A DNA stretch of 64,000 bases from the NCBI GenBank assembly GCA_943736015.1, contig OX031065.1:43820992-43884991 (forward strand). The letters run 5' to 3'. Numbering within the stretch: the stretch's first letter is position 1; each line of letters begins with the position of its first letter. Both the position numbers and the translations under genes were made by a program. The DNA is from Tridacna crocea (Eukaryota; Mollusca; Bivalvia; Cardiida; Cardiidae). The notes beneath the pieces were generated by a model, which saw only the letters and a list, made by a program, of their open reading frames with translations, was not told the origin of the DNA and did no database searches. This document shows positions 340 to 62,225 of this stretch, one piece after another.

Positions 340-559
340 CCCTTTTCCAAACAAGCCCTGGTTTTTATGTGTCTGCAGTAGAAGTCTTTTGAAAACACAG
401 TGGGAAAAGGAGAAATTGCTCGTAACGAGCAATTTCTCCTTTTCCCACAGTCTTTTCTACCCTTTTTGAGAACTTTTTGCCATTTTCTCAAAATCTAAAA
501 TTGTTGTCTGCAAACTCTTTTAGCTTGGAAGAGTCCAAAATTTGTCATTTGGGAAAGGG
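340..559 (+). repeat. TP-B element, full length
   Basis: This is a complete 220-bp copy flanked by TTAA at 336-339 and 560-563. It begins CCCTTTTCCAAACAAGCCC and ends GTCATTTGGGAAAGGG. The core arms are GAGAAATTGCTCGT and ACGAGCAATTTCTC around one A, which defines subfamily B. The short reading frame starting inside it is not considered coding. Confidence 0.88.
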
Positions 560-805
560 TTAAATACCAAAACAATCAATTTTCAAAAATGGCTTAAAAA
601 TTGTATGATGCACCTCACAAATGTAAGAGTATATCAAACTAAAGTGAATTGTGAGATTCCATTTAGATATGCAAGAATTTGTATCAGACTTACAAAATGG
701 ATGTTTTTGACATATTCAGTAGACACTCACCTGAAAAGAGAAAAGAGAACAATATGAAGATTAACCTACTAAAAACATAATTGAAAACATTGTGGAAGTA
801 GGAGA

Positions 806-862
806 ATGACGGACGATGGACACAGATTCTTAAAGCTCCCCTTGAGCATATTGTGCTCAGGT
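806..862 (+). repeat. Rolling-circle-like element, 3' end only
   Basis: GACGGACGATGGACAC followed by CTCCCCTTGAGCATATTG and GTGCTCAGGTGAGCT matches the 3' ends of the arrays at 7166, 8627 and 19980. Only the terminal hairpin remains. Confidence 0.6.
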
Positions 863-864
863 GA

Positions 865-1010
865 GCTTAAAACTGGTAGAAAACATTGCAGGAAAAGGAG
901 AAAATGCTGGTTACAGCATTTTCTCCTTGTCCCACAATGTTTTCAAAAGTCTTCTTTCTCAGGGCTGGTAAAATATTTATATCAATGTATGGTAAAGGCT
1001 CAGCCATTAC
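865..1010 (-). repeat. TP-A element, truncated
   Basis: The palindrome (GGAGAAAATGCTGGTTACAG...) and the part beyond it (TTTTCAAAAGTCTTCTTTCTCAGGG) are present. The other half is missing. The T in the palindrome centre places it on the minus strand. Confidence 0.6.
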
Positions 1011-1127
1011 AAAGTCTCTTTGCAGAAACCCCTTTATTTTCCTGGTGCAATGAATGCACTAAATGACATTTCACAGATTCATAAAGTACTCATTAAAGTC
1101 TTGTAAAGAGTTTCTGACGTCCTTTAA

Positions 1128-1355
1128 CGGGGCATTACCACACAACCCCTACTTTTTACGACCCTGAAAAAGAAGCCTTTAGAAAACACTGTGGGAAAAG
1201 GAGAAAATGCTGGTAACCAGCATTTTCTCCTTTTCCCACAATGTTTTCTATATGTCACACAACAAATTTCAAATTTTCAGTCACTTTTATTTTGTGCTCT
1301 GCAAATGCTTTAGATATGAAAAAGCTTAGAATATTGTCGTTTGGTAATGATCAAG
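1128..1355 (+). repeat. TP-A element, full length
   Basis: TTAA lies at 1124-1127 and 1356-1359. The palindrome is intact from GTGGGAAAAGG to CCTTTTCCCAC. The terminal CCC has decayed to CGG on the left. Confidence 0.8.
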
Positions 1356-1501
1356 TTAAAAGAAAAACATTAAGAAACATTTAATCCATGGGAAAATGTT
1401 TACTGAAAAATATTTTTCTGAACAGGATACTTGAAAATGTCAGCACTGTTTTTACTTTCTGTGATAAAAGTTCGCATAGCATGCTAATTTGGAGGCGTTT
1501 A

Positions 1502-1714
1502 CCCATTACCACATAATTCCCACTTTTAACGATCCTGAGAAAGATGTCTTCTGAAAACACAGTAGCAAAAGGAGAAAATGCTGGTAAGTGGCATTTTCTC
1601 CTTTTCTCACAATGTTCCTTCCCAAAACAAGTTTCAAATTTTCAGTCACTTTTTATTTTGTTGTCTACAACTGCTTTCAAATTGGGCCAATCTAAAATGT
1701 CCTTCAGTAAAGAG
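1502..1714 (+). repeat. TP-A element
   Basis: It begins CCCATTACCACATAATTCCC after TTTA and ends CAGTAAAGAG before TTAA at 1715-1718. The palindrome centre has diverged to GGTAAGTGGC, weakening the hairpin. Confidence 0.75.
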
Positions 1715-2004
1715 TTAACTTATTTCTTCCTGAAACTTACTTACACCAGGCTTCATGTGAAATGCATTTTTTTGACATGATATTTAGATCTTATTTATTT
1801 TTTAACATAATATTTAGATCTTGCGTAATTTTTCACCATGCTATTTGGGTCATAAATTTTTTATTGTCTATAATAATAAGGTCTTATACAAAAGAGAAGA
1901 AAATGCACTTTTGCATGCCGCAATATTTTCATCCAAAATCTGTGGCTAAATAAAAACATCGTTATGATTTAACTTGTGATTGAAAGACAACAACAAATTC
2001 TTAG

Positions 2005-2234
2005 ACGCATCAGAATAGGAGAAAATGCCGGCTACCAGTATTACCCATTTTCCCTTCATGTTTTCAAAAGGGTTCTATCTCTCGGTCGTTAAAAAAGGGG
2101 GTTGTGTAGTCAAAATTTCACTCTTTCCCAAATTGACAAAATTTTAAACCTGTCCAAATTGAATGCATTTACAGACCAAAATTTATACATGGCTCAAAAG
2201 ATTGAATTGTTTTACTGAAGACTTGAAAATACTG
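2005..2234 (-). repeat. Degraded TP-A pieces
   Basis: Two partial pieces lie side by side. 2005-2125 keeps a diverged palindrome and a right half ending GGGGGTTGTGTAGT. From 2126, CTCTTTCCCAAATTGACAAA starts another minus-strand copy. The hAT-like MITE that follows interrupts the second piece. Confidence 0.45.
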
Positions 2235-2650
2235 CATCTTCGCAAGTCAATTTTAGGCTGACGATTCACCATGTTACTCTACCATTGGCGGATCAAGCTT
2301 GATTTTAACATTCCCCGATATGCTTTTTCATTTGATGCAGCCAGCTCTAACTGCAACGAATGAAATGGCTCGTAGCATTTCATCTTTGATAAAAATAGAA
2401 TAAGGTCAAGACCTTTTGATTGGAAGACAAACATGGAAACCAAAATGGATGTCTGCTTATCGCTTCATGTTGAATAATTGTATTCGTAAGCGGTTTGTAA
2501 AATGATATTTCATTGGCTTTCGGAAATATATTGTAAAGGGGGTTAATAACCAGCATCCAATAGAGGGCGCATTGCAGGAATCTCAAAATCGGGCTCAATC
2601 AGCCAAGGTAAGATCCACTTAGTAATCATAACCTTGGCTTGCAAAGATAA
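2235..2650 (-). mobile_element. hAT-like MITE, copy 1
   Basis: The termini are CATCTTCGCAAG on the left and CCTTGGCTTGCAAAGAT on the right, an inverted repeat. The element is flanked by the 8-bp duplication AAATACTG at 2227-2234 and 2651-2658. An 8-bp duplication is typical of hAT transposons (established knowledge). There is no transposase reading frame. It aligns with the copies at 15131, 20683 and 57263. Confidence 0.8.
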
Positions 2651-3390: not shown

Positions 3391-3394
3391 TTAA

Positions 3395-4119: not shown

Positions 4120-4889
4120 TTTTAAAGGTGGGTATTTAGAATTTTCACCTCTCACCAAATTAAAAAATATATATATCACTGAAATTTATATGAAAAAATA
4201 AATACAAATCAAATTAATTAAGAATCATAAAATTTCCAAAATAAAATTTTTTGATGGTATTCCCTTAAAAAGCTACGTAGCCTCTTAACCCATTACCACA
4301 CAATCCCTACTTTTGACGCCCCTGAGAAGGAAGCCTTTTGAAAACACTATGGGAAAAGGAGAAAATGCTGGTAACCAGCATTTTCTCCTTTTCCCACAGT
4401 GTTTTCTACTCTTCCCAGAACAAATTTCAATTTTCCAGTCACCTTTATTTTGTCGTCTGCAAATGCTTTCAATTTGGACCAGTCTAAAATTTCCTTGTGT
4501 GGTAATGGGTTAAGGTATTTTTAGATTTCACGCCAAAAATCAAAAGAAGCATTGTGGAAATGTAAAGTGACTGGCACGTGACTAATGACGCTTAATATCC
4601 ATAACATAACAAACATGTAATTATTTTCCATAACTTCTTCTTCGGTCACTATGTTTGAAGCGTCATTTGTGTATTTACGGTATGTGAATGAGCAAGTTGC
4701 TCATCTAAAAGTAGACCATGGTTCCCCAGTGTCGTCCCCAGGACCGTAGTAAATCTATAATTTCTCTTCTTGTCAGATGGTTTTCAACTCCTGGGGTTTT
4801 ATGAATGCAAATTAAAAGGCCTTGGGAGTATAAGGATGAGTTTTTTGTATTTTTGTAAAAATTTCGTCCCAAAATCTGAAGGGCCACCT
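4120..4889 (+). mobile_element. AAGGTGG-ended DNA element, copy 1
   Basis: It starts TTTTAAAGGTGGGTATTTAG and ends GGGCCACCTTTAA, giving an inverted repeat around TTAAAGGTGG. It aligns along its length with the reverse complement of 13720-14252. Without the TP insertion it would be about 545 bp. No transposase frame is visible and the superfamily is not recognised. Confidence 0.65.
4289..4509 (+). repeat. TP-A element inserted in a dated target
   Basis: A 221-bp copy with CCCATTACCACACAATCCC at the left, GTGTGGTAATGGG at the right, TTAA at 4285-4288 and 4510-4513, and a perfect palindrome. It sits inside the AAGGTGG element. The matching empty position in the second copy is 14088-14097. Confidence 0.95.
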
Positions 4890-4969: not shown

Positions 4970-5223
4970 TAGAATCTAATGGCAAAATTCAGGACTGGTC
5001 CCTGTTTGAAGAACGTACAAACAACAAATCAAAGTGGACTACGGTGAAAGGAATCTTTTTTTTATTAACCCTTAGAGTGCCAATAAACCATATCATACGA
5101 TTTCATCCCAGAAATACAACCTAGATAATAATATTTCATGGTTGCCGTTGTCTGTAGTGTTGCAGAAATTTGAACAGTGTAGATCAAAGATCAGACTCCA
5201 TATTTTTTGCAGCTTGATTTTAA

Positions 5224-5400
5224 CCCTTTTCCGAACAACATATTTTGGACTCTTCCAAACCAAGAGTTTGCAGACGACAATAGTAGATTTGGAGAAAATG
5301 GCAGGAAGTTCTCAAAAAAGGTAGAAAACACTGTGGGAAAAGGAGAAATTGCTTGATGCGAGCAATTTCTCCTTTTCCCACAGTGTTTTAAAAAGAAAGG
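5224..5400 (-). repeat. TP-B element, 3' truncated
   Basis: The left end CCCTTTTCCGAACAAC follows TTAA at 5220-5223. The palindrome arm reads GAGAAATTGCT on one side and AGCAATTTCTC on the other, with a diverged centre (TGATGCG). The copy breaks off shortly after the palindrome. Confidence 0.75.
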
Positions 5401-5446: not shown

Positions 5447-7166
5447 AACAAGAGGGCCAAGATGGCCCTGGATCGCTCACCTGAATTTTTGAGATGACCA
5501 TAGTCTATTTTTTTTTTTTTTTTGAGGTATTGAAACATTGGAACCAATTTTATAATTTTGCCAAGCAATTTTCAAACAAGAGGGCCAAGATGGCCCTGGA
5601 TGGCTCACCTGAATTTTTGAGATGACCATAGTCTATTTTTTTTTTGAGGTATTGAAACATTGGAACCAAATTTATAATTTTGCCAAGCAATTTTCAAACG
5701 GTCACCTGTAAAAGTCATTTCGAAATCTGACCATCAGTTTCAAAAAGAAGAATTTTTAAGAATTCTTCATTTCTGTATAAGAGCAAGTAGCCCCCATCCA
5801 TGAGAGCCATCTTTCTTGATGGATCAAAATTTACGAACAAGTTTTGAAAAGGGTCACCCAAGGAACATCTCTCTGAAATAATTTCAGAATCTGACCAGGG
5901 GTTTCAGAGAAAGAGAATTTTAAAGAATTTCATCATGTCCATATAGTGCAAGTAGCCCCCATTCACAAGAGCCATGTTTCTTGATGGATCAAAATTATAT
6001 GTACAGCTTTTGGAAAGGGTCCCAAGGAACATCTCAGTCAGATTATTTTAAAATCTGACCACAGGTTTCAGAGAAGAAGAATTTTCAAGAATTTCTTCAT
6101 TTCCATATAGTGCAAGTAGCCCCCATTCACTAGAGCCATGTTTCTTGGCCAATCAAAATTTTGCAAACAATTTTAGAAAAGGGTCACTCAAGGAACATCT
6201 CTGTGAAATTATTTCAAAATCTATCCAGTCATTTTAGAGAAGAAGAATTTTCAAGAATTTCTTCATTTCTATATAGTGCAAGTAGCCCCCATTCACCAGA
6301 GCCATGTTTCTTGACCAATCAAAATTTCGCGAACAATTCTTGAAAAGGGTAACCCAAGGAACAAGTCTGTGAAATTATTTCAAAATCTAACCAGCGGTTT
6401 CTGAGAAGAAGAATTTTTAAGAATTTCTTCATTTCTGTATAGTGCAAGAAGCCCCCATTCACCAGAGCCATGTTTCTCGACAGATCAAAATTTCGCGAAC
6501 AATTTTTGAAAAAGGTCATCCAAGGAACATCTCTGTGAAATTATTTTAAAATCTGACCAGCGGTTACAGAGAAGAAGAATTTTTAAGAATTTCTTCATTT
6601 CTGTACAGTGCAAGAAGCCCCCATTCACCAGAGCCATGTTTCTTGACGGATCAAAATTTCGCGAACAATTTTTGAAAAGGGTCACCTAAGGAACATCTGT
6701 GTGAAATTATTTTAAAATCTGGCAAGTGGTTTCAGAGAAGAAGAATTTTTAAGAATTTCATCAATTCTGTATAGTGCAAGAAGCCTCCATTCACCAGAGC
6801 CATGTTTCTTGACGGATCAAAATTTCACGAACAGTTTTTGAAAAGGGTCACCCAAGGAACATCTGTGTGAAATTATTTTAAAATCTGGCCAGCGGTTTCA
6901 GAGAAGAAGATTTTTAAAGAATTTGCTAAAAAATTCCATTTCGTTGCCATGGCAACCAGAGTTTTTGACGGAATCAAATTCTGTGAACAATTTTTAAAGA
7001 GGACCTCCCAAGGAACATTCCAGCCAAGTTTGGTCCAAATCCCAGCGGTTTAGGAGGAGTTGATGTTTAAAGAATTGTTGACGACGCACGACGCACTGAC
7101 GCACGACGGACACCGGGTGATCCTAAAAGCTCCCCTTGAGCACATTGTGCTCAGGTGAGCTAAAAA
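5447..7166 (+). mobile_element. Rolling-circle-like tandem-repeat element, first array
   Basis: The 5' end is AACAAGAGGGCCAAGATGGC (hairpin GGGCCAAGATGGCCC) then GCTCACCTGAA. This 5' block of about 125 bp is present twice (5447 and 5574). Units of about 165 bp follow, each with GAGCCATGTTTCTTGA, spaced 164-167 bp (5806, 5971, 6135, 6300...). The 3' end has a GACGACGCACGACG run, CTCCCCTTGAGCACATTG and TGCTCAGGTGAGCT. Helitron/Helentron-derived elements with tandem units in bivalves look like this (established knowledge); the assignment here is inference. No protein is encoded. Confidence 0.7.
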
Positions 7167-8627
7167 GGTCACCTGTAAAAGTCATTTTGAAATCTGACCA
7201 TCAGTTTCAAAAAGAAGAATTTTTAAGAATTCTTCATTTCTGTATAAGAGCAAGTAGCCCCCATCCACGAGAGCCATGTTTCTTGATGGATCAAAATTTA
7301 CAAACAAGTTTTGAAAACGGTCACCCAAGGAACATCTCTCTGAAATTATTTCAAAATCTGAACAGGGGTTTCAGAGAAAGAGAATTTTAAAGAATTTCAT
7401 CATGTCTGTATAGTGCAAGTAGCCCCTATTCACAAGAGCCATGTTTCTTGACGGATCAAAATTATATGTACAGCTTTTGGAAAGGGTCACCCAAGGAACA
7501 TCTCAGTCAGATTATTTTAAAATATGACCACGGGTTTCAGAGAAGAAGAATTTTCAAGAATTTCTTCATTTCCATATAGTGCAAGTAGCCCCCATTCACT
7601 AGAGCCATGTTTCTTGGCCAATCAAAATTTCGCGAACAATTTTAGAAAAGGGTCACCCAAGGAACATCTCTGTGAAATTATTTCAAAATCTGTCCAGCCA
7701 TTTCAGAGAAGAAGAATTTCCAAGAATTTCTTCATTTCTGTATAGTGCAAGTAGCCCCCATTCACCAGAGCCATGTTTCTTGACCAATCAAAATTTCGCG
7801 AACAATTCTTGAAAAGGGTAACCCAAGGAACAAGTCTGTGAAATTATTTCAAAATCTAACCAGCTGTTTCAGAGAAGAAGAATTTTTAAGAATTTCTTCA
7901 TTTCTGTATAGTGCAAGAAGCCCCCATTCACCAGAGCCATGTTTCTTGGCCAATCAAAATTTCGCGAACAATTTTTTAAAAGGGTCACCCAAGGAACAAC
8001 TCTGTCAAATTATTTCAAAATCTGACCAGCGGTTTCAGAGAAGAAGATTTTTTAAGAATTTCTTCATTTCTGTATAGTGCAAGAAGCCCCCATTCACCAG
8101 AGCCACATTTTTTGACGGATCAAAATTTCGCGAACAGTTTTTGAAAAGGGTCACCCAAGGAACATACCTGTGAAATTATTTCAAAATCCGACCAGCGGTT
8201 TCAGAGGAGAAGATTTTTAAAGAATTCCTTCATTTCTGTATAGTGCAAGAAGCCCCCATTCACCAGAGCCACATTTTTTGAAGAATCAAAATTTCACGAA
8301 CTATTTTTGAAAAGGGTCACCCAAGGAAGATATCTGTGAAATTATTTCAAAATCGGACTAGCGGTTTCAGGAGAAGATTTTTGAAGAATTTGCTAAAAAA
8401 TTCCATTTGGTTGCCATGGCAACCAGAGTTTTTGATGGAATCAAATTCTGTGAACAATTTTTAAAGAGGACCTCCCAAGGAACATTCCTGCCAAGTTTGG
8501 TCCAAATCCGACCAGCGGTTTAGGAGGAGTTGATGTTTAAAGAATTGTTGACGACACACGACGCACGACGGACACCGGGTGATCCTAAAGCTCCCCTTGA
8601 GTACATTGTGCTCAGGTGAGCTAAAAA
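7167..8627 (+). mobile_element. Rolling-circle-like element, second array (tandem duplicate)
   Basis: It restarts at GGTCACCTGTAAAAGTCATT, the same point as position 5700, and runs through another set of about 165-bp units to a second complete 3' end (GAGTACATTGTGCTCAGGTG). The segment 5700-7166 is therefore duplicated in tandem without its 5' hairpin. Short open frames inside the units are not coding. Confidence 0.7.
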
Positions 8628-8667: not shown

Positions 8668-9764
8668 AAACAAGAGGACCATGATGGTCCTATATCACTC
8701 ACCTGAGTGAGTAAGCTGTAAAGTCAAACTTGTGACCCCTGGGCAGGGCCAGTTTTGACCCCAGGGGCATCCTAAGAAAAAACTTGGTAGAAGTCCACTA
8801 GGAGATGCTACTTACAAAATATCAAAGCTCTACACCTTCTGGTTTCAGAGAAGAAGATTTTTTAAGTTTTTCTTCTTTATTTCTGTTTCAAACTTGTGAC
8901 CCCTGGGGCAGGGCCAGTTTTGACCCCACGGACATCACATGAACAATCTCGGTAAAGGTCCACCAGAAAATGCTACATACCAAATATCAAAGCTCTGCAC
9001 CTTCTGGTTTCAGAGAAGAAGAATTTTAAAGTTTTCTTTCTCTGTTCTTATGTCTCAAACTTGTGATCCCCAGGGCAGGGCCAGTTTTGACCCCAGGGAC
9101 ATCACATGAACAATCTTGGTAGAGGTACACTAGGAGATGCTATATACAAATATCAAAGCTCTGCACCTTCTAGTTTCAGAGAAGAAGAATTTTAAAGTTT
9201 TCCTACTTTGTTCCTATGTATCAAACTTCTGACCCCCGGGACGGGGCCAGTTTTGTCCCCAGGGACATCATATGAACAAACTTGGTAGAAGTCCTCTAGG
9301 AGATACTACATACCAAATATCAAAGCTCTGCACCTTCTAGTTTCAGGGAAGAAGAATTTTAAAGTTTTCTTTCTTTGTTCCTATGTTTCAAACTTGTGAT
9401 CCCGGGGCGGGGCCAGTTTTGACCCCTGGGTCATGATTTGAACAAACTTGGTAGAGGTCCACTAGGAGACGCTACAAACCAAATTTCAAAGCTCTATGCC
9501 TTCTAGTTTCAGACAAGAAGATTTTCAAAGATTTTGCTATTTTTTTCCTTTTGGTTGTCATGGCAACCAGAGTTAGGGATGGAATTCAATCTCTTGAACA
9601 ACTTAGGTAGAGCTTCACCCAAGGAACATCCCTGCAAAGTTTTATCAAGATTGGCCCAGTGGTTTTGGAGGAGAAGATGTTTAAAGAAATTGTGGACAAC
9701 GGATGAATGACATTTGGCGATCACAAAAGCTCACCATGAGCACTTCTTGCTCAGGTGAGCTGAA
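8668..9764 (+). mobile_element. Rolling-circle-like tandem-repeat element (about 166-bp units)
   Basis: The 5' end is ACAAGAGGACCATGATGGTC then CACTCACCTGAG. Five units begin CAAACTTGTGACCCC at about 8725, 8888, 9056, 9221 and 9388. A different tail unit contains GTTGTCATGGCAACCAGAG. The 3' end is CTCACCATGAGCACTTCTTG then CTCAGGTGAGCT. A stray piece of the same unit recurs at 24880. Confidence 0.7.
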
Positions 9765-13719: not shown

Positions 13720-14252
13720 GGTGGCCCTTGATAGGTTTTGGGACGAATTTTTTACAAAAACACAAAAAATTAATCCTTATACTCTCCAGGACTTTTAATT
13801 TCCATTCATAAAACCCCAGTAGTCGAAAACCATCCAACAACAAGAAAAATTAGATATTTACTATGGCTCAGGTCGATACCGACGGGAACCACCGTCTATT
13901 TTTAGATGAGCAACTTGCTCATTTACATACCCGAAATACACAAAGGACACTTCAAACATAGCGTCCGAAGAAGAAATTATGGAAAATAATTACATGTTTG
14001 TTATGTTATGGAATTTAAGTGTCATTACTAAGTCACTTAACATTCCCACAATGCTTCTTTTGACTTTTGGCGTGAAATCGAAAAATACCCTAAGAGGCTA
14101 TGTAGCCTTTTAAGGGAATACCATAAAAAAAAAATTTTCGCAATTTTACAATTCTTAATTATTGATGATTTGTATTGTTTTTTCATATAAGTTTCAGTGA
14201 TATAGATATTTCTTTAATTTGGTGGGATGTGAAAATTCGAAATACCAACCTC
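13720..14252 (-). mobile_element. AAGGTGG-ended DNA element, copy 2 (empty site)
   Basis: This is the reverse-complement partner of 4120-4889: it begins AAAGGTGGCCCTTGATAGG and ends near GGTGGGATGTGAAAATTCG. It lacks the TP insertion: where copy 1 carries TTAA-TP-TTAA, this copy reads ACCCTAAGAGG (14087-14097) without interruption. Confidence 0.7.
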
Positions 14253-14278: not shown

Positions 14279-14623
14279 GGTAGAAAACATGTGGGGGGAA
14301 ATTTGGTTACCAGCACTTTCTCCTTTTCCCACAAAGTTTTTAACTCTTTACCACACAACAAAATTTTAGACTGGTTCAAACTGAAAGCATTTGCAGACGA
14401 CAAAATAAATGCGACTGAAGAATCAAAATTTGATTTGGGAAGGGTAGAAAACATTGTGGAAAAAGGAGAAAATGCTGGTTACCAGCATTTTCTCCTTTTT
14501 CCACAATTTTTTCTAAAGCTTCTTTCTCAGGGGCGTCAAATGTACTAGGGATTGTGTGGTAATGGGTTAAAAGGCTTCTTGCCAAAAGTCCTTAAAACTT
14601 GGGATTGCATGGTAAAATGATAA
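14279..14623 (-). repeat. TP-A element split by another TP-A
   Basis: 14279-14339 carries the palindrome (GGTTACCAGCAC) and 14571-14623 the remaining end (AAGGCTTCTTGCC to GATTGCATGGTAAA). Between them sits a complete TP-A copy. The target TTAA arose within TTTTCAAAAGG of the outer copy. Confidence 0.8.
14344..14566 (-). repeat. TP-A element nested in TP-A
   Basis: A 223-bp copy with TTAA at 14340-14343 and 14567-14570, starting CTCTTTACCACACAAC and ending GTGTGGTAATGGG. The arms carry a matched change: GTGGAAAAAGG on one side and CCTTTTTCCAC on the other, where the consensus is GTGGGAAAAGG and CCTTTTCCCAC. Confidence 0.9.
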
Positions 14624-31209: not shown

Positions 31210-31213
31210 TTAA

Positions 31214-36205: not shown

Positions 36206-36212
36206 ATGTAAA

Positions 36213-36432
36213 CCCTTTCCCAAACGACAAATTTTAGACACTTCCAAACTCAAAGAGTTTGCAGACGACAATTTCAAATTTGATGAAATGGCAGAAAGTT
36301 TCTCCAGATGGGTAGAAAACACTGTGGGAAAAGGAGAAATTGCTCGTTACGAGCAATTTCTCCTTTTCCTACAGTGTTTTCAAAAGACTTGTACTACAGA
36401 CATGTAAAAAGAAGGGCTTGTTTGGGAAAGGC
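36213..36432 (-). repeat. TP-B element, full length
   Basis: 220 bp, starting CCCTTTCCCAAACGAC after TAAA and ending GTTTGGGAAAGGC before TTAA at 36433-36436. The core GCTCGTTACGAGC shows the B arms with a central T. Confidence 0.9.
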
Positions 36433-36521
36433 TTAAAAGAGCAGAACTGTGTCAAAAATAGTTTCATGGTTATCTGTCCCTGTTGCAGGTATTCCCTATG
36501 TGATAATTACAACTTGTCCAA

Positions 36522-38557: not shown

Positions 38558-39808
38558 AAGAGTGGCAAACTGTCGCAAGATACGCCTGTCTTACCCCAAG
38601 TTGTAAAGCTGGGGCATGCACCAGACTAAATTAAAGTATGAAAAATGACAAAGGGCAGTAACTCAAAAATTAAGTGAGCAAGAGTTATGATTCCTGTGCA
38701 CTGCACTCCCCCTTGATAAGATCTATCCAACCATGAAATTTCATAACCCTAGCTAGTATACTTTTGGAGATATTCACTGGACAAAAATCAAGTATGAAAA
38801 ACGACAAAGGGCAATAACTCAAAAATTAAGCAAGCAAAAGTTATGATTCCTGTGCACTGCACTCCCCCTTGATAAGATCTATTCACCCATGATATTTCAT
38901 AACCCTAGCTAGTATAGTTTTGGAGATATGCTCCGGACAAAATTCAAGTATAAAAAACGACAAAGGGCAATAACTCAAATTAAGCAAGCTAGAGTTATGG
39001 TTCTTATGCACTGCACTCCCCCTTGATTAGATCTATCCACACATGAAATTTCATAACCCTAGCTAGTATAGTTTTGGAGATATGCTCCGGACAAAATTCA
39101 AGTATGAAAAACGACAAAGGGCAATAACTCAAAAATTAAGCAAGCAAGAGTTATGATTCCTGTGCACTGCACTCCCCCTTGATAAGATCTATTCACCCAT
39201 GATATTTCATAATGCTAGCTAGTATAGTTATGGAGATATGCTCCGGACAAAATTCAAGTATGAAAAACAACAAAGGGCAATAACTCAAAAAGTAAGCAAG
39301 CAAGTTATGGTTCTTGTGCACTGCACTCCCCCTTGGTGAGATCTATCCACCCATGAAATTTCATAACCCTAGCTAGTATAGTTTTGGAGATATTCACGGG
39401 ACAAAATTCAAGTATGAAAAATGACAAAGGGCAATAACTCAAAAATTAAGCAAGCAAGAGTTATGATTCCTGTGCACTGCACTCCCCCATGATGAGATCT
39501 ATATACCCATGAAATTTCATAACCCTAGCTAGTATAGTTTTGGAGATATGCTCCAGACAAAATTCAAGTATGAAAAACGACAAAGGGCAATAACTCAAAA
39601 ATTAAGCAAGCAAGAGTTATGGTTCCTGTGCACTACACTCCCCCTTGATGAGATCTATGCACCCATGAAATTTCATAACCCTAGCTAGAATAGTTTTGGA
39701 GATATGTTCCGGACAAAGAACTGGACGCCGCCAGCCCGCCCGGATGCCCACCTGCCCACCCGCCACGGGTGATCCCATAATACGTCCCGCCTTCGACGGG
39801 CGTATAAA
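38558..39808 (+). mobile_element. Tandem-repeat element, eight 155-bp units
   Basis: The 5' end is AACAAGAGTGGCAAACTGTC then ATACGCCTGTC. The 3' end has CGTCCCGCCTTCGACGGGCG, a hairpin, and GACGGGCGTAT, which is roughly inverted to the 5' motif. Units marked by GGGCA(A/G)TAACTC start at 38653, 38809, 38964, 39119, 39274, 39429 and 39584, spaced 155-156 bp. Units are highly alike, implying recent homogenisation. Confidence 0.75.
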
Positions 39809-39885
39809 AGTGATATTCTAAAGCACTGTGACACAGAGCACAGCTATCAAGGTTCCCCCCAAAATTATTCAAGCAATGGGCTTTA

Positions 39886-42634: not shown

Positions 42635-42695
42635 GTTTAGTAAAGAATTATCATGTGACCATTATAAAGGAACAATCTTCAGTAGGTATTTTTAA

Positions 42696-42896
42696 CTCAT
42701 TACCAGACAATCCCTACTTTTTAAGACCCTAAGAAAGAAGTCTATTGAAAAAATTGTGGGAAATGGAGAAAATGCTACATTTTCTCCTTTTCCCACAATG
42801 TTTTCTACCCTTCACAAATTTTTCATCACTCTTATTTTGTTGTCTGCTTATGTTTTCGATTTGGACAAGCCTAAAATTTTGTTGTTTGGTAATGAG
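42696..42896 (+). repeat. TP-A element lacking the palindrome centre
   Basis: TTAA at 42692-42695. The core GGAGAAAATGCTACATTTTC has lost the hairpin tip (GGTAACCAGC). The right end GTTTGGTAATGAG is followed by TTTA. Confidence 0.82.
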
Positions 42897-42941
42897 TTTA
42901 AAAACATTTTAGGAAGAAAACATTGACTCAGTATATCAATG

Positions 42942-45236: not shown

Positions 45237-45284
45237 ATAAAAAAAAATCTGCCCAATAGAAAAATTTGTAATATGGATCCTTAA

Positions 45285-45509
45285 CCCTTTACTCCATAGA
45301 TACTCATTTCTATGCATTATTTGAAGGAGCCTTTGGAAAACATTGCGGCAAAAGGTGAAATTGCTCGTAACAAGCAATTTCACCTTTTGTCACAATGTTT
45401 TCTGTGCTATCAAAAGGTGTCATATACACATAAGAACCGGCTTCATCCTTGCTGTTTGTTATTTAGGGTCAATTAGAGATACCATAGAAATGCCTTATGG
45501 GGTAAAGGG
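45285..45509 (+). repeat. TP-C element, full length
   Basis: 225 bp with TTAA at 45281-45284 and 45510-45513. CCCTTTACTCCATAG and TTATGGGGTAAAGGG are the ends. The core is GGTGAAATTGCTCGTAACAA then GCAATTTCACC. Confidence 0.92.
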
Positions 45510-45555
45510 TTAATGCACTAGGAGACATGAGAGACCTCTAAAATTGTGAGGTTAA

Positions 45556-46855: not shown

Positions 46856-46946
46856 AATAAATAGTTATATGATAACAATATAAAGCCAATTTGTTTTGTC
46901 CTTTGTCCATCGTGCCTTCAATTATCAACTGTAAAAGTTCTCTTAA

Positions 46947-47166
46947 CCCTTTACCAAACAATCCCTGGTTTTTACGACCCTGAGACAGAGGGCTGTTGGA
47001 AACATTGTTGGAAAAGGAGAAAATGCTGGTAACCAGCATTTTCTCCTTTTCCAACAATGTTTTCTATGGTGTTGGAAAAGAAATCAGTTTTTGAGTTACA
47101 TTTATTTTGTCATCTGCAAGCGCTTTCAATTTGGACCAGTCTAAAATTTTGTCGTTTGGTAAAGGG
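46947..47166 (+). repeat. TP-A element with matched arm change
   Basis: 220 bp with TTAA at 46943-46946 and 47167-47170. The arms read GTTGGAAAAGG and CCTTTTCCAAC, so the GTGGG to GTTGG change is present on both sides and the hairpin stays perfect. Ends CCCTTTACCAAACAATCCC and GTCGTTTGGTAAAGGG. Confidence 0.93.
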
Positions 47167-47170
47167 TTAA

Positions 47171-48375: not shown

Positions 48376-48611
48376 ATAGCATGTTACATCACATTTGAGG
48401 ACCACAAGAAGCAAGAGGTGGTATAGGAGCTGGAGCAATGTCTCCATTTTAGTTCTCAATGTTAGAAATTGAGAAAATTAGAAAGAAAATCCCTTGATTT
48501 GCATTGATCAGCATAATCTCCTATTCTCACAATGTTTTCTACTCTTTCCTGGACAACTATTTTTGTCAGCAGATCCTTTAAATCTGGAAAAGTCTAATTT
48601 GTGGTACTTAA

Positions 48612-48819
48612 CCCAATACCAAACGACAATATTTTAGACTTGACCAAAAAGAAAACATTTGCAGATGGCTCAACAGTGAAAATTGTCCTTGATAGAGTAG
48701 AAAACATTGTGGGAAAAGGAGAAAATGCTGGTTACCAGCAATTTCTCCTTTTCCCACAATGTTTTCTATAGGGTTCGTAATCTCAGGGGCGTCAAAAGTA
48801 GGGACTGTGTGGTAATGGG
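48612..48819 (-). repeat. TP-A element
   Basis: 208 bp with TTAA at 48608-48611 and 48820-48823. CCCAATACCAAACGAC and GTGTGGTAATGGG are the ends. A decayed plus-strand copy (48440-48607) precedes it. Confidence 0.87.
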
Positions 48820-48836
48820 TTAATAAAGAGGTACCG

Positions 48837-49066
48837 TAAACTCTTTTCTCAATGACAGAATTTAAGAATGGTCAGAATTCACAGCATTTGCAAATCCCAA
48901 ATTACATTTTGGTCAAATGGTGAGAACTGTCTTTGATAGGATAGAAAACATTGTGAGAAAAGGAGAAAATGCTGGCTACCAGCTATTTCTCCTTTTCCCA
49001 TAATGTTTTAGAATCCTTATTTTCCAGGGTTGTGGAAAGTCAAGGTTTTCGTGGTACATGTAAATA
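48837..49066 (-). repeat. TP-A element, diverged
   Basis: CTCTTTTCTCAATGACAG opens it and GTTTTCGTGGTACATG closes it. The palindrome centre is GCTGGCTACCAGC. Last TP copy before the receptor gene. Confidence 0.7.
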
Positions 49067-49662
49067 ATACCAAGTTACTTCTCGTTTCAGATTGGATCAT
49101 TCAAGTATTGGAGACAAACATGCAGTCCTGTAAGCTGTGACGTCCAGCTTCCAATATATAACAGTGTGAATTGGTACTCAATAGTTCACTATCACAGTGT
49201 CAACAGAGGAAGTCTTTAATAACTAGAAAAAGTATATAATGTGATCAACCTTTTTCCTTTGAGAATTTATGCTTGGTTTTACCCACCAAAACAGTAAAAC
49301 TGTATCAGTAAGGCACAGTAACATACATGTATTTTGATATATTACAAGGATGGGTGTTTCTGTTTGTTTGCATCTAGTGCCAAGTGTTTCCAAAGTTTGA
49401 CTGGGAATTAAATTGGAAAAATAAAAAGTTCAGTTCAAAATTACATAAAGTTGAATTCACTGGATGAAAAGAATAGAAATGTTAGCAACTTCTTTGTATC
49501 TGTTAAGGTTTGGAAAATTCACACAGAATTAACGATATAATTCCAGAAACTTTCTGTGAATATTTTTACAAGAACTATTCTTGAAAAATCTCACCCTGAA
49601 CTCTGCATAAACTTTCTAGGGAAATATTTTTGTGGACTAATCTAAAAAACCTTTTGCTAGAC
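49067..49662 (+). other. Upstream region of the receptor gene
   Basis: TACTTCTCGTTTCAG ends at 49090 and is a plausible splice acceptor, so a 5' untranslated exon could begin at 49091 and run into the coding region. No TATA box or other promoter element can be assigned with confidence. The region is free of TP copies for about 600 bp, unlike its surroundings. Confidence 0.35.
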
Positions 49663-50883
49663 ATGGATGAAGAAGTTGAAAAGTTTGTGGAAATGTTAAA
49701 CATGTTAAACAAAACATACAAACTAGATATTGGTGCCAGTAGGATCACCATAAACTGCAGTGATTACTTTATGGACGAGGTACCAATGTATGTCAATGAG
49801 ACATACGAGAACAAAGAAATATTGGAACAAAACAGAACATTGGAGCAAGTATACCATTGTCTTTATTATGTGATCATACCAGTAGTATGTGTATTTGGTT
49901 TCCTTGGAAACATTCTGAATGTGATTGTATTTTCCAAGAAAAAGACTTGCAGAACCCTGGATGAGATTGAATACTGTACCACTATCTGCCTTGTGGCCCT
50001 CGCCGTCTCTGACATGATGTTTTGTGTGTGTATATTCCCTAAGACATTTGACAAACGAACATATGATGTGTACACCAAGAATGAAATTATGATGTATTAC
50101 AAAATGTATGCTTCATTTGCTATCAACAGTTTCATTATGTCCAGCACCCTGTTGACTGTGCTGACGGCAATCATGAGATACACAGCTATATGCCACCCAT
50201 TTCATTCAAGACAATTTATATCTTTCATGAAGACTATCATTGCTATAGTTGTCCTGTTTTTGTTCAGCTTTGCCTTCAACACTCCACATATATGGAGATT
50301 CTCCATCAGTAAAGTTGACTGTGTTGGTCCTGAGGCCTACTACACTCTGGAGAAAGGTGAACTGTTTGAGAACGACAGTTTTACATATACACACAAACTT
50401 CTGTGGGCAGTTCTTGGAAACTTCATACCTCTTGTTCTGCTGCTGTACTGCAACATAAGACTTGTAAAAGCTCTGCATGCCAGCCAGAAACTTCGCCTTC
50501 TACACAGCCGTGACAATGTTGGATGCCTCTCTGCTCATCGCCGGATAAACATCACCCTGATAACAATCATTATACTATTCTTCATTCTTGTGGCTCCATC
50601 AGAAATCTCAAAATTTATCTCAAACATATCCAACTCGGATAAGAGCCCAAGGAGTCAGTATACAAACACAATGGTCTCAATGATCACTAATGCCCTACAG
50701 TGTATCAACTTCTCCGTCAACTTTATCCTCTACTACATCATCATTGCACCTTTTCGGAAAACTCTGCACGAGTTTATCTGCATCATGCGTATTCGTCGTG
50801 GAACAAGGGATTCCTCCAACAGTCAGAAACAACAGACATGTATACTGCTGACAATCAAGGAACAGAGAAGAGCTCTTATATAA
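49663..50883 (+). CDS. Class A G-protein-coupled receptor, FMRFamide-receptor-like
   Basis: A plasma-membrane receptor of 406 residues in one uninterrupted exon, expected to sense an extracellular ligand (probably a neuropeptide) and signal through a G protein. The start is the ATG at 49663, with a good context (GACATGG); an upstream in-frame stop lies at 49597, and the stretch 49630-49662 has only a TTG. The N-terminal part has four glycosylation sequons (N16, N31, N45, N57) and no signal peptide. Seven hydrophobic segments lie at about 67-91, 105-126, 146-170, 190-208, 246-270, 295-318 and 335-362. Class A marks are GN (82-83), LAVSD (113-117), RYTAICHP (172-179), P256 in segment 5, P312 in segment 6, and NFILY (353-357) followed by FRK of helix 8. 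Having Phe for Pro in NPxxY is usual in the FMRFamide-receptor group. Oddities: MRY replaces D/ERY, LVAP replaces CWxP, and no Cys is seen at the usual outer end of segment 3 to pair with C220. The C-terminal tail may be affected by a frame change. Confidence 0.9.
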   Translation: MDEEVEKFVEMLNMLNKTYKLDIGASRITINCSDYFMDEVPMYVNETYENKEILEQNRTLEQVYHCLYYVIIPVVCVFGFLGNILNVIVFSKKKTCRTLDEIEYCTTICLVALAVSDMMFCVCIFPKTFDKRTYDVYTKNEIMMYYKMYASFAINSFIMSSTLLTVLTAIMRYTAICHPFHSRQFISFMKTIIAIVVLFLFSFAFNTPHIWRFSISKVDCVGPEAYYTLEKGELFENDSFTYTHKLLWAVLGNFIPLVLLLYCNIRLVKALHASQKLRLLHSRDNVGCLSAHRRINITLITIIILFFILVAPSEISKFISNISNSDKSPRSQYTNTMVSMITNALQCINFSVNFILYYIIIAPFRKTLHEFICIMRIRRGTRDSSNSQKQQTCILLTIKEQRRALI

Positions 50884-51553: not shown

Positions 51554-51555
51554 AG

Positions 51556-51766
51556 CTCATTACCACACAATCCCAACTTTTAAAGACCCTGGGAGAGAGG
51601 CCGTTTCAAAACATTGTGGGAAAAAAAGAAAATGCTAGCATTTTGTCTTTTTCTCACAATGTTTTCTATCCTCCCCAAAAAATACAAATTATGAGTAACA
51701 TTTGTTTTGTCTTTATTTTGTGCTTTCATTTTGATTAAGTCTAAAATCTTACTGTCTGGTACAGGG
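51556..51766 (+). repeat. TP-A element lacking the hairpin tip
   Basis: CATTACCACACAATCCC opens it and GTCTGGTACAGGG precedes TTAA at 51767-51770. The core AAAGAAAATGCTAGCATTTT has lost the tip, as in the copy at 42696. Confidence 0.8.
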
Positions 51767-51841
51767 TTAAACTTGTGAAAAGAAATCTTTGCTACATTAT
51801 TACTTTGCTTGACAAAATATTATAACAAACCTGGACACATG

Positions 51842-52435: not shown

Positions 52436-52674
52436 ATCCCCAAGAGATGACAAATTTTGGTCTAGTTTGTAGAGTTTGTAACAACCCTTGGAAAGAAGCC
52501 TTTTGAAAACAGTATGGGAAAAGGAGAAATTGCTGGTAACCAGCATTTTCTCCTTTTCCCACAATGTTTTCTACTCTATCAAGGACAATTTTCAACGTTT
52601 GAGTCATCTTTAATTTTTCATCTGCAAATGTTTTCTGTTTGGACAAGTCGAAATTTTGGCATTTGGCAAAATAG
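52436..52674 (+). repeat. TP-A element
   Basis: The palindrome is GGAGAAATTGCTGGTAACC then AGCATTTTCTCC: one arm carries the B-type T while the other keeps A, an unmatched change. The right end GGCATTTGGCAAAATAG has no TTAA. Confidence 0.7.
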
Positions 52675-52770
52675 TTGATTGTGGCTCAATGATGAGATTT
52701 GATATATTTTTCAAATCTAGAAAACATTACTACCAGCTGTCTGTAACTTTTTTTTTTTAAATATTTTTAA

Positions 52771-52988
52771 CCCTTTCCCAAACAAAGAATTTTGGACTCT
52801 TCAAAACTGAAAAAGTTTGCAGACGACTATTTTAGATTTGGAGAAAATGGCAGAAATTTGTCAAAAAGGGTAGAAAACACTGTGGAAAAAGGAGAAATTG
52901 CTCTTTACTAGCAATTTCTCCTTTTCCCCCAGTTTTCAAAAGACTTATACTGCACACACGTAAAAACCAGGGCTTGTTAGGGAAAGGG
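52771..52988 (-). repeat. TP-B element, full length
   Basis: 218 bp with TTAA at 52767-52770 and 52989-52992. CCCTTTCCCAAACAAAG and GTTAGGGAAAGGG are the ends. Core GGAGAAATTGCTCTTTACTA then GCAATTTCTCC. Confidence 0.88.
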
Positions 52989-53099
52989 TTAAAAAAGCCT
53001 TTTTTTTTCAAGGGGTAGTAAAGAAATTTAATCAAAACATTAGTTTCTTATTATTGAAGTAATTAATTTCCTGACAGCAAAGAAGATTGTCCTTTGCCG

Positions 53100-54137: not shown

Positions 54138-56622
54138 AAACAAGAGGGCCATGATGGCCCTGAAATCGCTCACCTGAGTTTATTGACCAAACATGCACCA
54201 TCTAGTTTCCCAGTGACCTAGTTTTTTATCAGACATTACCCATCATCAAACACTTTTGAGATATCAATAAGACAAACATTCTGGCCAAGTTTCATGAGTA
54301 TTGGACTGAAAATGTGGCCTCTACAGTGTACAAAAGGTTTTTCTAAGATTTCATCAAGTGACCTAGTTTTGGACCCGACAAATACCCATTATCAAACTCT
54401 TTTGAGACATCACCAAAACAAACATTCTGACCAAGTCTGAAGAGTATCAGGCAGAAAATGTAGCCTCTGGAGTGTACACAAGGTTTTTCTAATATTTGAC
54501 CCATTGACCTAGTTTTTGACTCCACATGACCCATTTTCAAACTCATTCAAGGTATCACCAGGACAAATATTATGAACAAGTTTTAGGAGTATCAGACTGA
54601 AAATGTGTCCTCCAGAGCATACAAAAGGTGTTTATAACATTTGACCTATTGACCCAGTTTTTGACCCAACATGACCCATATTCAAACTCATCCAAGATAT
54701 TATAAAGGCAAACATTCTGACTAATTTTCAAGAGTGTTGGACTGAAAATGTGGCATCCAGAGCATATACAAGGTTTTTCTAAGATTTGACCTGGTGACCT
54801 AGTTTTTAACCCCCAATGACCCATTTTCAAACCTGTCTGAGATATCATCAAGACAAACATTCTGACCAAATTACAAGAGTTTCGGACTGAAAATGTGGCC
54901 TCTAGAGCCTACAACAGGTTTTTCTAACATTTGACCTAGTGACCTAGTTTTTGACCCCACATGACCCATTTTCGTTCTTGTCCGAGATATCATCCAGGCA
55001 AACATCCTGACCAACTTTCATGAGTATCCAACTGAAAATATGGCCTCTAGAGCGTACAAAAGGTTTTTCTAAGATTTAACCTAGTGACCTAGTTTTTGAC
55101 CCCACGTGACCCATTTTCAAACTCGTCCGAGATATCATCCAGACAAACATTCTGACCAACTTTCATGAGTATCCGACTGAAAATGTGGCCTCTAGAGCGT
55201 ACAAAAGGTTTTTCTAAGATTTGACCTGGTGACCTAGTTTTTGACCCCACGTGACCCATTTTCAAACTCGTTCGAGATATCATCCAGACAAACATCCTGA
55301 CCAACTTTCATGAGTATCCAACTAAAAATGTGGCCTCTAGAGCGTACAAAAGGTTTTTCTAAGATTTGACCTGGTGACCTAGTTTTTGACCCCATGTGAC
55401 CCATTTTCGAACTCGTCCGAGATATCATCGAGACAAACATCCTGACCAACTTTCATGACTATCCGACTGAAAATGTGGCCTCTAGAGCGTACATAAGGTT
55501 TTTCTAAGATTTGACCTGGTGACCTAGTTTTTGACCCCACGTGACCCACTTTCAAACTCGTCCGAGATATCATCCAGACAAACATTCTGACCATTTTTCA
55601 TGAGTATCCGACTGAAAATGTGGCCTCTAGAGCGTACAAAAGGTTTTTCTAAGATTTGACCTGGTGACCTAGTTTTTGACCCCACGTGACCCACTTTCGA
55701 ACTCGTCCGAGATATCATCCAGACAAACATTCTGACCATTTTTCATGAGTATCCAACTGAAAATGTGGCCTCTAGAGCCTACAACAGGTTTTTCTAAGAT
55801 TTGACCTGGTGACCTAGTTTTTGACCCCACGTGACCCACTTTCGAACTCGTCCGAGATATCATCGAGACAAACATCCTGACCAACTTTCATGAGTATCCG
55901 ACTGAAAATGCGGCCTCTAGAGCGTACACAAGGTTTTTCTAAGATTTGACCTGATGACCTAGTTTTTGACCCCACGTGACCCACTTTCGAACTCGTCCGA
56001 GATATCATCGAGACAAACATCCTGACCAACTTTCATGAGTATCGGACTCAAAATGCGGCCTCTAGAGCGTACACAAGGTTTTTCTAAGATTTGACCTAGT
56101 GACCTAGTTTTTGACCCCACATGACCCATTTTCGAACTCGTCCGAGATATCATCGAGACAAACATCCTGACCAACTTTCATGAGTATCGGACTCAAAATG
56201 CGGCCTCTAGAGCGTACACAAGGTTTTTCTAAGATTTGACCTAGTGACCTAGTTTTTGACCCCACATGACCCATTTTCGAACTCGTCCGAGATATCATCG
56301 AGACAAACATCCTGACCAACTTTCATGAGTATCCGACTCAAAATGCGGCCTCTAGAGCGTACACAAGGTTTTTCTAAGATTTGACCTAGTGACCTAGTTT
56401 TTGACCCCACATGACCCATTTTCGAACTCGTCCGAGATTTCATCGAGGCAAACATCCTGACCAACTTTCATGAGTATCCGACCAAAACTGTGGCCTGTAG
56501 AGCGTACACAAGGTAAAAAGTTGACGACGGACGACGCACGACGGACGACGGACGACGGACGACGGACACAGCACGATCACAATAGCTCACCATGAGCACT
56601 TCGTGCTCAGGTGAGCTAAAAA
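54138..56622 (+). mobile_element. Rolling-circle-like tandem-repeat element, 145-bp units
   Basis: The 5' end AAACAAGAGGGCCATGATGG, hairpin GGGCCATGATGGCCC and GCTCACCTGAG lead to about 16 units of 145 bp. The 3' end is a (GACGACG)n-like run at 56521-56568, CTCACCATGAGCACTTCG and TGCTCAGGTGAGCT. From about 55089 the period is exactly 145 bp and units are almost identical; towards the 5' end they diverge. A 71-codon frame on the minus strand appears at each unit start, but 145 is not divisible by three, so it is not a repeated protein. Confidence 0.8.
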
Positions 56623-60298: not shown

Positions 60299-60455
60299 TC
60301 ACCTTGTGAAAAAGGCATCATCGTTATGTACATAGTTACATGTATTATTGTTTGTTGATTTGTGATTTAAAGTTACATTCAAAATATGGTAAGTCTTCTT
60401 GTCTTCTTTTCAATAACTTTACAATGTTTCGGCTCCACTAGTTTTTCACATTGAC

Positions 60456-60709
60456 TCGGCATCAATGAAAAGTCACCAGGTAGTCAATCAAAATTTACTC
60501 TAGACTGGTGCAAGGACATAACTCCTGAAATAGCAATATTTATTTTTAAGCACACTACTGCAGTTTCAGTGTGAAGCTCAAAGGCATAGGGGCATTCTCA
60601 TGTCAAAAGTTTAAGTTGGTAAATAACATAATTGAAAATTTCTCTCTTTTGGCAAGGTAGAAATTATTCAACTTCAGTACCTGGTGACTTTTCATTGACG
60701 ATGAGCCGG
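60456..60709. mobile_element. Small DNA element with about 30-bp inverted ends
   Basis: CGGCATCAATGAAAAGTCAC plus CAGGTA on the left and, reverse complemented, CGGCTCATCGTCAATGAAAA plus GTCACCAGGTA on the right pair, with a 3-4 base gap. Length is about 254 bp. Superfamily not recognised; no target duplication identified. Confidence 0.6.
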
Positions 60710-60891
60710 TGTAATTTGTATAGCAACTTTAAGAGAGAGGAACAAATCTTGTCAAAGGCTTGGAAATCATTTTGGCAGACCTAGGATCTAAACTTGTAAC
60801 TTCCTTGTTATACAGTTTTTAATGTCATAAAGACATTACATTAGTTAAAGTATGGCAGTCTGTGCACCTATCTGTGCTTTTCTGGACTTGG

Positions 60892-61103
60892 TCTGACAAG
60901 TGCTCCAGGTAATACTTTCCAAGCTGGCTGCTTTCCAACATAACCAGATCACCGAAACAATGGACAGTGGTGAGAGAGGATTGAACCCTGTAACAATTAT
61001 AATCAATCCTCAAAAAGAAATAATTTTGGCCTGGGATCCAACCAGCGACCCCCTGTACTCAAGTCCTATACTCCATCAACTAAACTACCACAACTCGGCT
61101 GGA
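60892..61103 (-). repeat. tRNA-derived SINE, family shared with 34612
   Basis: On the minus strand GTAGTTTAGTTGATGGAG (A-box-like) and CGCTGGTTGGATCCC (B-box-like) form the head. The body CTGCTTTCCAACATAACCA and CAGTGGTGAGAG matches 34612-34850. Confidence 0.62.
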
Positions 61104-61133
61104 CAAAAAGACCTGTGCAATAATCCTTTATTG

Positions 61134-61315
61134 CATTAACACGAGTTTTAAAGATCTTGCCTAAGAACAGTTTCAAAAACATGGGGGAAAGTAGAAAATG
61201 CTGGTAACCAAAATGCTTAATTTTTCCATCAAAGACAAATTCTATAATTTGAGCCACATTTAAAATGTTGTTTGCAAATGCTTTCAATTTGCACAAGTAT
61301 GCATAAAATAGTTAA
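61134..61315 (+). repeat. TP-A element, right arm deleted
   Basis: AAACATGGGGGAAAGTAG and AAAATGCTGGTAACC are followed by AAAATGCTTAATTTTTCC. The ends are decayed. Confidence 0.55.
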
Positions 61316-61514
61316 CCAACAAATTAAAAAGGTTCCACTTTATAAAAGTGACCCAAATGCAGAAATACTTGAATGGAAGGGAAATAAAACATTTCACTGG
61401 GTTTTATCAAAGCTTTTCTAAAAATTGTATCATTTTGGACACAATAAACTTTGTCATCTAGAAAGTACTTTCAATACGAGCAAATTTTAAATTATCTTAA
61501 CTGAAAAAGAGATA

Positions 61515-61628
61515 ACCCTTTACCAAACAACAAAATTCAAGATTTGTACAATAAATGCATCAGCAGACTACAAATTAATGTGGCCCAAAGGATGAAAATG
61601 GTTGAAAACATTGTGGGACAAGAGCTTT
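61515..61628 (-). repeat. TP left-half fragment
   Basis: CCCTTTACCAAACAACAAAA to GAAAACATTGTGGGACAAG; it stops just inside the palindrome. Confidence 0.6.
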
Positions 61629-61694
61629 GCAGAGCAATGCATATATGCCTGAAGACCCTTGTCACTGAAATCAATTCAAGCTTGAGCTATCATT

Positions 61695-62001
61695 CAACGT
61701 GATTATACCCCCCACCAGCTCCTTGTCAGAAAAATAGGTCTTTGTCACAGAATGTAGAATGTTTTAGTACAAAGGAAGAGTTGAAAAAAGTTCCAGGGAA
61801 GACAATTCCACTACAAATCACAGCACAGTCATGAAAATTGCACATGCAACTTCATATATATAGAACCCTGTGTGTAAATTCCTATTCAGTGCGTGAAAAA
61901 ATGTAGTATTGGTTTGAACAAATATGTGTCTACAGAGAGATGGACAGATGGACAGACGGACAGCCATGGCAATTCGAGTGTACCTTTTCAAGGTAGAAAC
62001 A
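61695..62001 (+). repeat. TATACCCC-ended element, copy 3
   Basis: GATTATACCCCCCACCAGC at the left, AAGACAATTCCACTACAA in the middle and GGACAGATGGACAGACGG near the right match 34851-35140. The right terminus is lost where TP-C inserted close by. Confidence 0.5.
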
Positions 62002-62005
62002 TTAA

Positions 62006-62225
62006 CCCTTTACTCCATAGATACACATTTCTATGCAATGCTTGTAGGAGCCTTTGGAACACATTGTGGCAAAAGGTGAAATTGCTTGTGATGAGCAATT
62101 TCTCTTTTTGTCACAATGTTTTCTATGCTATCAAAAGGTGTTAATACACCATAGAAACGGCTTCATCCTTGCTGTTATTTAGGGTCAATTAGAGATGCCA
62201 TAGAAATGCCATATGGGGTAAAGGG
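62006..62225 (+). repeat. TP-C element, full length
   Basis: 220 bp with TTAA at 62002-62005 and 62226-62229. CCCTTTACTCCATAG and ATATGGGGTAAAGGG are the ends. Core GGTGAAATTGCTTGTGATGA then GCAATTTCTC, with one arm position reverted. Confidence 0.92.

Follow-up and report, generated by a model that had tools for sequence, protein, structure and literature searches.

The window analyzed here, a 64,000-nucleotide stretch of the Tridacna crocea genome (contig OX031065.1, positions 43,820,992 to 43,884,991), carries many copies of a repeat that is a nonautonomous DNA transposon (miniature inverted-repeat transposable element [MITE]) of the piggyBac type with a central hairpin-forming palindrome. 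Full copies span about 227 bp between TTAA sites, and the palindrome, which is central in the element, consists of two 33-base arms and a 1-base loop (67 bases). Changes on one arm of this palindrome are matched on the other more often than chance allows, both between subfamilies and among individual copies. We lean, without great insistence, toward the explanation that rare hairpin-templated copying from arm to arm acts together with a pairing constraint on the multiplying lineages.

Mirrored changes in the palindrome arms

The copies analyzed come from a 264-kb set made up of the window and 20 sampled 10-kb loci taken at preset positions (10 Mb on 18 contigs and 30 Mb on two); of 346 matches to the repeat, 221 have at least 28 of the 33 arm pairs readable. 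Pairs are numbered outward from the loop, with pair 0 adjoining it. Clustering of 184 copies on their flanks alone gave five clusters of at least four copies at a cut of 0.30, holding 142 copies, and all seven differences between the consensus arms of these flank-defined subfamilies (five of them distinct) are mirrored. A sequence-only reading of the window had distinguished three palindrome types, A, B, and C, and the arm sequences of the three match those that it quoted. The B-type consensus (10 copies, flank differing at 29% of columns) departs from the main arm at three pairs and the C-type consensus (14 copies, flank differing at 50% of columns) at four, all mirrored, while the remaining three clusters show no arm difference from the main consensus. 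The differences that had been described as mirrored between A and B are so, and there is a third, T to C at pair 25; the G-T pair that had been ascribed to type C (pair 20) proved polymorphic, with G on both arms in 7 of the 14 C copies, G.T in 6, and a mirrored A in 1. At a cut of 0.25, seven of nine differences are mirrored, the other two being weak one-arm differences (support of 0.40) from a five-copy cluster. In founders, the arms have changed much less than the flanks, and almost every arm change is matched by one on the opposite arm.

Excess covariation, for which the sequence-only reading had proposed a test, is present among individual copies as well. In the window (67 copies) there are 48 mirrored cells, compared with a mean of 15.5 in column shuffles, and 20 mirrored pair-alleles, compared with a shuffle mean of 10.8; none of 2,000 column shuffles reached 48 cells, and one reached 20 pair-alleles. 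The 221 copies comprise 6,076 reference cells, 890 cells changed on one arm, 157 mirrored cells, and 71 cells changed differently on both arms. Shuffling gave 42.8 mirrored cells, or 66.7 when it was confined to four divergence strata, and 0 of 500 shuffles reached 157 either way. With the five founder alleles excluded, 63 mirrored cells remain against 41 expected (six divergence strata; standard deviation [SD], 5.7; maximum of 400 shuffles, 58), and 20 of these 63 are transversions, against 10.7 expected (SD, 3.1). Both columns are changed in 112 cells for partner columns versus 51 to 77 for slid columns. One-arm changes outnumber mirrored ones by a wide margin, a point absent from the sequence-only reading.

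In the ten closest copy pairs (flank distance below 0.06), the flank distance is 0.047, the palindrome distance between copies is 0.040, and the arm-to-arm distance within copies is 0.041; the palindrome-to-flank distance ratio drops from 0.86 to 0.5 as distance grows. As arm and flank distances are nearly equal in the closest pairs, the arms of an inserted copy decay with hardly any restraint, and it is the multiplying lineages that are constrained. Divergence of the arms at the same rate as the flanks had been named beforehand as the result that would contradict correction or selection on the fold; the ten closest pairs come near to it, which cuts against strong correction in resident copies.

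The exact 31-base core GGAGAAAATGCTGGTNACCAGCATTTTCTCC occurs 191,599 times genome-wide (15 times in the window), whereas its reversed control does not occur, and this abundance permits one-arm and double changes to be counted at single pairs, all other bases of the core being required to be perfect. Pair 7 has 3,941 one-arm and 111 double changes (40 mirrored among 50 listed doubles), pair 10 has 4,702 and 221 (37 mirrored among 50 listed), and pair 2 has 10,065 and 551 (30 mirrored among 50 listed). One-arm changes at the loop-proximal pair 2 run 2.1 to 2.6 times those at pairs 10 and 7. A nonpartner control, pair 10 on one arm with pair 7 on the other, gave 90 doubles against 48.4 under independence, a 1.86-fold heterogeneity. 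After adjustment for this heterogeneity, mirrored doubles stand at 6.2, 5.6, and 2.9 times expectation at pairs 7, 10, and 2, respectively, and unpaired doubles stand at 0.95, 2.4, and 1.7 times, so that the mirrored-to-unpaired odds relative to expectation are 6.5 (binomial p = 1.8e-9), 2.3 (p = 0.004), and 1.8 (p = 0.03). The mirrored excess amounts to about 1.4 to 2.9 per 100 one-arm changes, varying by site and normalization. Mirrored forms of all three alleles are present at each of the three pairs; the 40 listed at pair 7 comprise 21 TT, 13 GG, and 6 CC, and scaling to all pair 7 doubles gives about 29 GG against 9.1 expected and about 13 CC against 1.2 expected.

Pair 0 behaves differently. 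Among 50 listed of its 342 doubles, 20 are mirrored, compared with 43% expected from allele frequencies; there is no excess, and the mirrored-to-unpaired odds relative to expectation are 0.9. The fold predicted for a perfect A copy, as single-stranded DNA, is a hairpin of 32 pairs closed by a 3-base loop, TAA (z of −10.75), which leaves pair 0 open within the loop. The lack of an excess beside the loop fits a process that requires the hairpin but would fit selection on the hairpin too.

Proposed arm-to-arm copying and its alternatives

The explanation that we favor has two parts. An inserted copy mutates one arm at a time and nearly as fast as its flanks, as the resident copies show. Occasionally, one arm of a copy folded into a hairpin during DNA synthesis could template the other, and a one-arm change would thereby be mirrored or erased; such copying is suggested by the mirrored doubles beyond chance, the transversions among them, the scatter of mirrored copies over flank backgrounds, and the lack of an excess beside the loop. 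Well-paired copies would keep multiplying, so that the founders of subfamilies come to carry mirrored changes, and the pairing constraint is suggested by the seven of seven mirrored founder differences and by the slow change of the arms against the fast change of the flanks. Copying would supply mirrored states, and the constraint in source lineages would sort them. The sequence-only reading, which had proposed hairpin-templated correction or selection on the fold, is thus partly supported: it named the right kinds of force, but these have to be assigned to two levels, with rare copying in individual elements and a constraint on source lineages. Correction agrees with the mirrored doubles, which exceed chance at three of four sites, although the excess is small per one-arm change, and selection on the fold agrees with the founder differences, all of them mirrored at the 0.30 cut and seven of nine at the 0.25 cut.

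The loop base is other than A in 38 of 169 non-C copies, far oftener than are the A positions of the arms. The changes are A to T in 17, A to G in 14, and A to C in 7 of these 169 copies, with no excess of loop inversion. Loop inversion is predicted by the interstrand form of template switching and not by the intrastrand form, in which the loop is kept (PMC8794818). Since the loop lacks inversion bias, templated synthesis would probably be of the intrastrand type. Mismatches within the arms of the 221 copies comprise 254 G.T and 255 A.C, with no strand preference; therefore, an RNA-level fold is ruled out as the feature that resident copies keep.

Several observations weigh against templated copying with a pairing constraint. 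Bulk homogenization is absent in resident copies, as judged from the ten closest pairs, and no before-and-after pair of one locus was seen. At each site the mirrored fraction was taken from the 50 doubles listed first, which follow contig order; among those listed for pair 2, two are only 120 bases from each other, and their independence may be in question. At pairs 10 and 2, unpaired doubles are likewise more numerous than expected, which means that heterogeneity of age or site has not been removed in full; relative to unpaired doubles, the pair 2 excess is 1.8-fold. More than half (21 of 40) of the listed mirrored doubles at pair 7 carry T, the B/C allele, and could have come by descent from relatives of B type. 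The mirrored copies whose flanks were compared appear to be of greater age than background copies, an effect that the unpaired control was meant to absorb. Multisite tracts were not found: the ratio of mirrored to one-arm changes in the outer pairs is 10:56 in 20 mirrored copies versus 14:82 in 49 background copies, a weak comparison, because the copies are few and the search pattern allowed no variation in the inner 15 pairs.

The strongest competitor, selection on the fold alone, is in our judgment unlikely. Under it, the arms mutate independently and only copies that regain pairing by chance multiply; possible roles of the fold would be transposase binding, synapsis, or action as a DNA or RNA hairpin. 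The consistently mirrored founder differences at the 0.30 cut and the slow change of arms whose flanks diverge by 29 to 50% would follow from it, as would the lack of an excess at pair 0, and the piggyBac and piggyBat transposases do bind end palindromes via cysteine-rich domains, as described in the portion of PMC11707139 considered here. What it leaves unexplained is that, at pair 7, unpaired doubles stand at expectation while mirrored doubles stand about 6-fold above it, that G.T is not preferred, and that the pair 7 GG and CC doubles are scattered over flank backgrounds and do not form amplified families. The last point comes from a comparison of 20 mirrored copies (13 GG and 6 CC at pair 7 and 1 CC at pair 10), which are spread across many flank backgrounds; GG and CC are two of the three alleles at pair 7. 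For the 18 pair 7 copies with enough flank, the mean nearest-neighbor distance is 0.199, compared with 0.155 in random sets taken from 49 perfect-core background copies, and 99.7% of 300 such sets fall at or below the observed value. Because their flank distances exceed those of random sets, the GG and CC copies at pair 7 are not one inherited lineage. Three GG copies (L051, L055, and L056) share their nearest background copy and form one young group, so that a small inherited share among the GG copies is possible.

Exchange between copies, by gene conversion or recombination that swaps whole palindromes and so keeps the arms matched, is decidedly improbable. About 190,000 identical donors are available for it; the C-type and A-type palindromes are similar despite flank consensuses that differ at 50% of columns, and of two clusters that share an end type, one has A palindromes and the other B palindromes. 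Yet none of the 45 copies in the four fully listed flank clusters has both arms of another cluster's type, and the same is true of the 72 main-cluster copies (of 97) whose types were listed; few donors exist, moreover, for recurrent rare mirrored alleles. Exchange of single arms would leave hybrid cores, and these are nearly absent: B cores number 10,018 genome-wide and half-A/half-B cores number 10, against 2.4 expected from point mutation alone, and ectopic exchange of single arms is accordingly rejected.

There is a similarly slim chance that the mirrored doubles descend from numerous minor subfamilies missed by the sampling, rather than having arisen afresh. The million or more fragments implied genome-wide leave room for small lineages to be missed, the young GG group is of just this kind, and the pair 7 TT copies fall outside the flank comparison; however, the flanks of the GG and CC copies are spread no less widely than those of random copies, and perhaps more so, and all three mirrored alleles occur at each of the three sites. 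It is hardly probable that the element multiplies via a single-stranded, folded-back intermediate, one arm serving as both primer and template for the other; arm copying would then be part of its rise past a million fragments and no side effect of ordinary replication. Least credible is shared mutability, in which identical arm sequences give coinciding hot sites and old copies gather doubles: the 1.86-fold heterogeneity of the nonpartner control and the raised unpaired doubles at pairs 10 and 2 accord with it, but it gives no preference for matching alleles, whereas the mirrored-to-unpaired odds show one at pairs 7, 10, and 2.

The element, its abundance, and its copies in the window

Among the 84 full-length copies of the 264-kb set, TTAA flanks are found at both ends in 80, at one end in 3, and at neither in 1. 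For the insertion at 4286-4512 (plus strand; an A-type copy with TTAA at both ends), alignment revealed two empty sites, each with one TTAA, in other copies of the host repeat that lack the insert (about 14031-14148 in the window and about 8769-8890 in sampled locus L040); the empty-site scan matched many other element copies, and the alignment check covers the 4286 site only. TTAA at both ends together with a single TTAA in the empty site is the signature of piggyBac-type transposition. The end sequence is short (CCCTTT..., inverted), and the consensus ends, beginning with CCC after TTAA, match as inverted repeats at 15 to 17 of 18 positions in all five flank clusters. End types CCCTTTACC and CCCTTTCCC occur among the copies, and the TTTACC-to-TTTCCC difference appears at both ends of the element; the ends, too, covary.

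The piggyBac transposase model PF13843 has 118 matches in the genome and none in 14 control genomes. Several matches have an intact frame and identical scores (for example, G000 C3:66851558-66852652 and C18:30428954-30430048), which suggests recent transposase activity, and these piggyBac-type transposases may be candidate partners of the MITE. No relative of the exact core, the sole pattern searched there, was found in viral contigs, and Rfam gave no match above the gathering score in the window.

The element is extremely abundant. The window contains 100 nonoverlapping matches on both strands, covering 18.4 kb (29%). The assembly comprises 1.05 Gb in 31 contigs, 18 of them of 40 to 77 Mb, and the 20 sampled loci hold 34 cores, compared with 36.5 expected from the genome count. 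The family covers on average about 21% of the bases in these loci (bootstrap range, 15 to 28%), and their 245 matches per 200 kb extrapolate to about 1.3 million fragments genome-wide. Coverage ranges from 1% to 56% among the individual 10-kb loci (L031 to L050). Three identical rare cores lie about 21.5 kb apart (G000:C13:25553467, 25574990, and 25596512) and suggest a large tandem duplication.

All seven B and C copies named by the sequence-only reading are present in the window, at positions whose starts had been placed 2 to 3 bases inside the element ends. The B-type copies lie at 337-562 (plus strand; arms at 391-423 and 425-457, loop at 424), 36211-36435 (minus strand; palindrome centered at 36348), 52768-52991 (minus strand; with a 2-base gap in one arm), and 63758-63979 (plus strand; centered at 63845), and a fifth, truncated at its left end, had been missed at 5221-5395 (minus strand; centered at 5357). 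The C-type copies lie on the plus strand at 27119-27345, 45282-45512, and 62003-62228, with palindromes centered at 27206, 45369, and 62090, respectively. The A-type copy at 30986-31212 (plus strand) has perfectly matching 33-base arms, and the predicted 32-pair hairpin with its TAA loop is accompanied by paired ends. Half-changed copies, altered at pair 7 on the left arm alone, are found at 48609-48822 (minus strand), 48839-49054, and 52477-52670. Mirrored changes outside B and C occur at 46944-47169 (plus strand; pair 21, G to T on both arms) and 14341-14569 (minus strand; pair 19, G to A on both arms). In the copies at 42693-42898 and 51554-51769, a deletion that is almost symmetrical about the center has removed seven bases from the middle of the palindrome.

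Other features of the window include a tandem array at 54209-56555 in which a 145-base unit is repeated about 16 times, with a related inverted stretch at 30172-30651; a 166-base tandem repeat in two blocks at 5691-8453; and a tandem repeat at 38616-39847 whose spacing alternates between 154 and 156 bases. A Pfam scan of 5 of the 17 listed open frames gave one rhodopsin-type receptor (a 427-amino-acid frame at 49600-50883; PF00001, 6.4e-19), one match below the cutoff, and three frames with none.

Comparison with known systems

The element resembles other piggyBac-type (TTAA) MITEs in its TTAA ends and empty site, its short CCCTTT... inverted ends, its very high copy number, and the presence of piggyBac transposase genes in the same genome; it differs from them in that its central 67-base palindrome changes less than the rest of the element. 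As in piggyBac and piggyBat, palindromes lie inside a piggyBac-type element, but, in the portion of PMC11707139 considered, those palindromes are in the element ends (19 bp in piggyBac and imperfect in piggyBat), whereas here there is one internal palindrome of 67 bases. Binding of the palindrome by a transposase would be a possible reason for the pairing constraint (PMC11707139).

Template switching that maintains hairpins has been described, the inference coming from rRNA and microRNA genes, which are also under selection at the RNA level (PMC8794818). The present case shares with such quasipalindrome correction the mirrored changes, transversions included, and the kept loop, as in intrastrand hairpin priming, and differs in its host, a transposon whose perfect core is present in about 190,000 natural copies. 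It differs also in that neither an excess of loop inversion nor multisite tracts were detected here. Judged by titles and abstract openings, none of the papers that the literature searches listed reports a MITE with palindrome arms evolving in step, and the word stem "palindrom" is absent from the main text of PMC10294476, to the extent that this text was available. The MITE also poses a testable question, namely, why it keeps a long palindrome, a structure known for its instability, while its remaining sequence drifts.

Neither the kind of element nor the kind of process is new; what is unusual is their combination and the number of natural replicates. With about 190,000 perfect cores and 18,708 one-arm variants at three pairs in one genome, the rate of copying, its dependence on position, and its spectrum become measurable, and, unlike rRNA and microRNA genes, this MITE offers a largely neutral setting in which to measure arm-to-arm copying.

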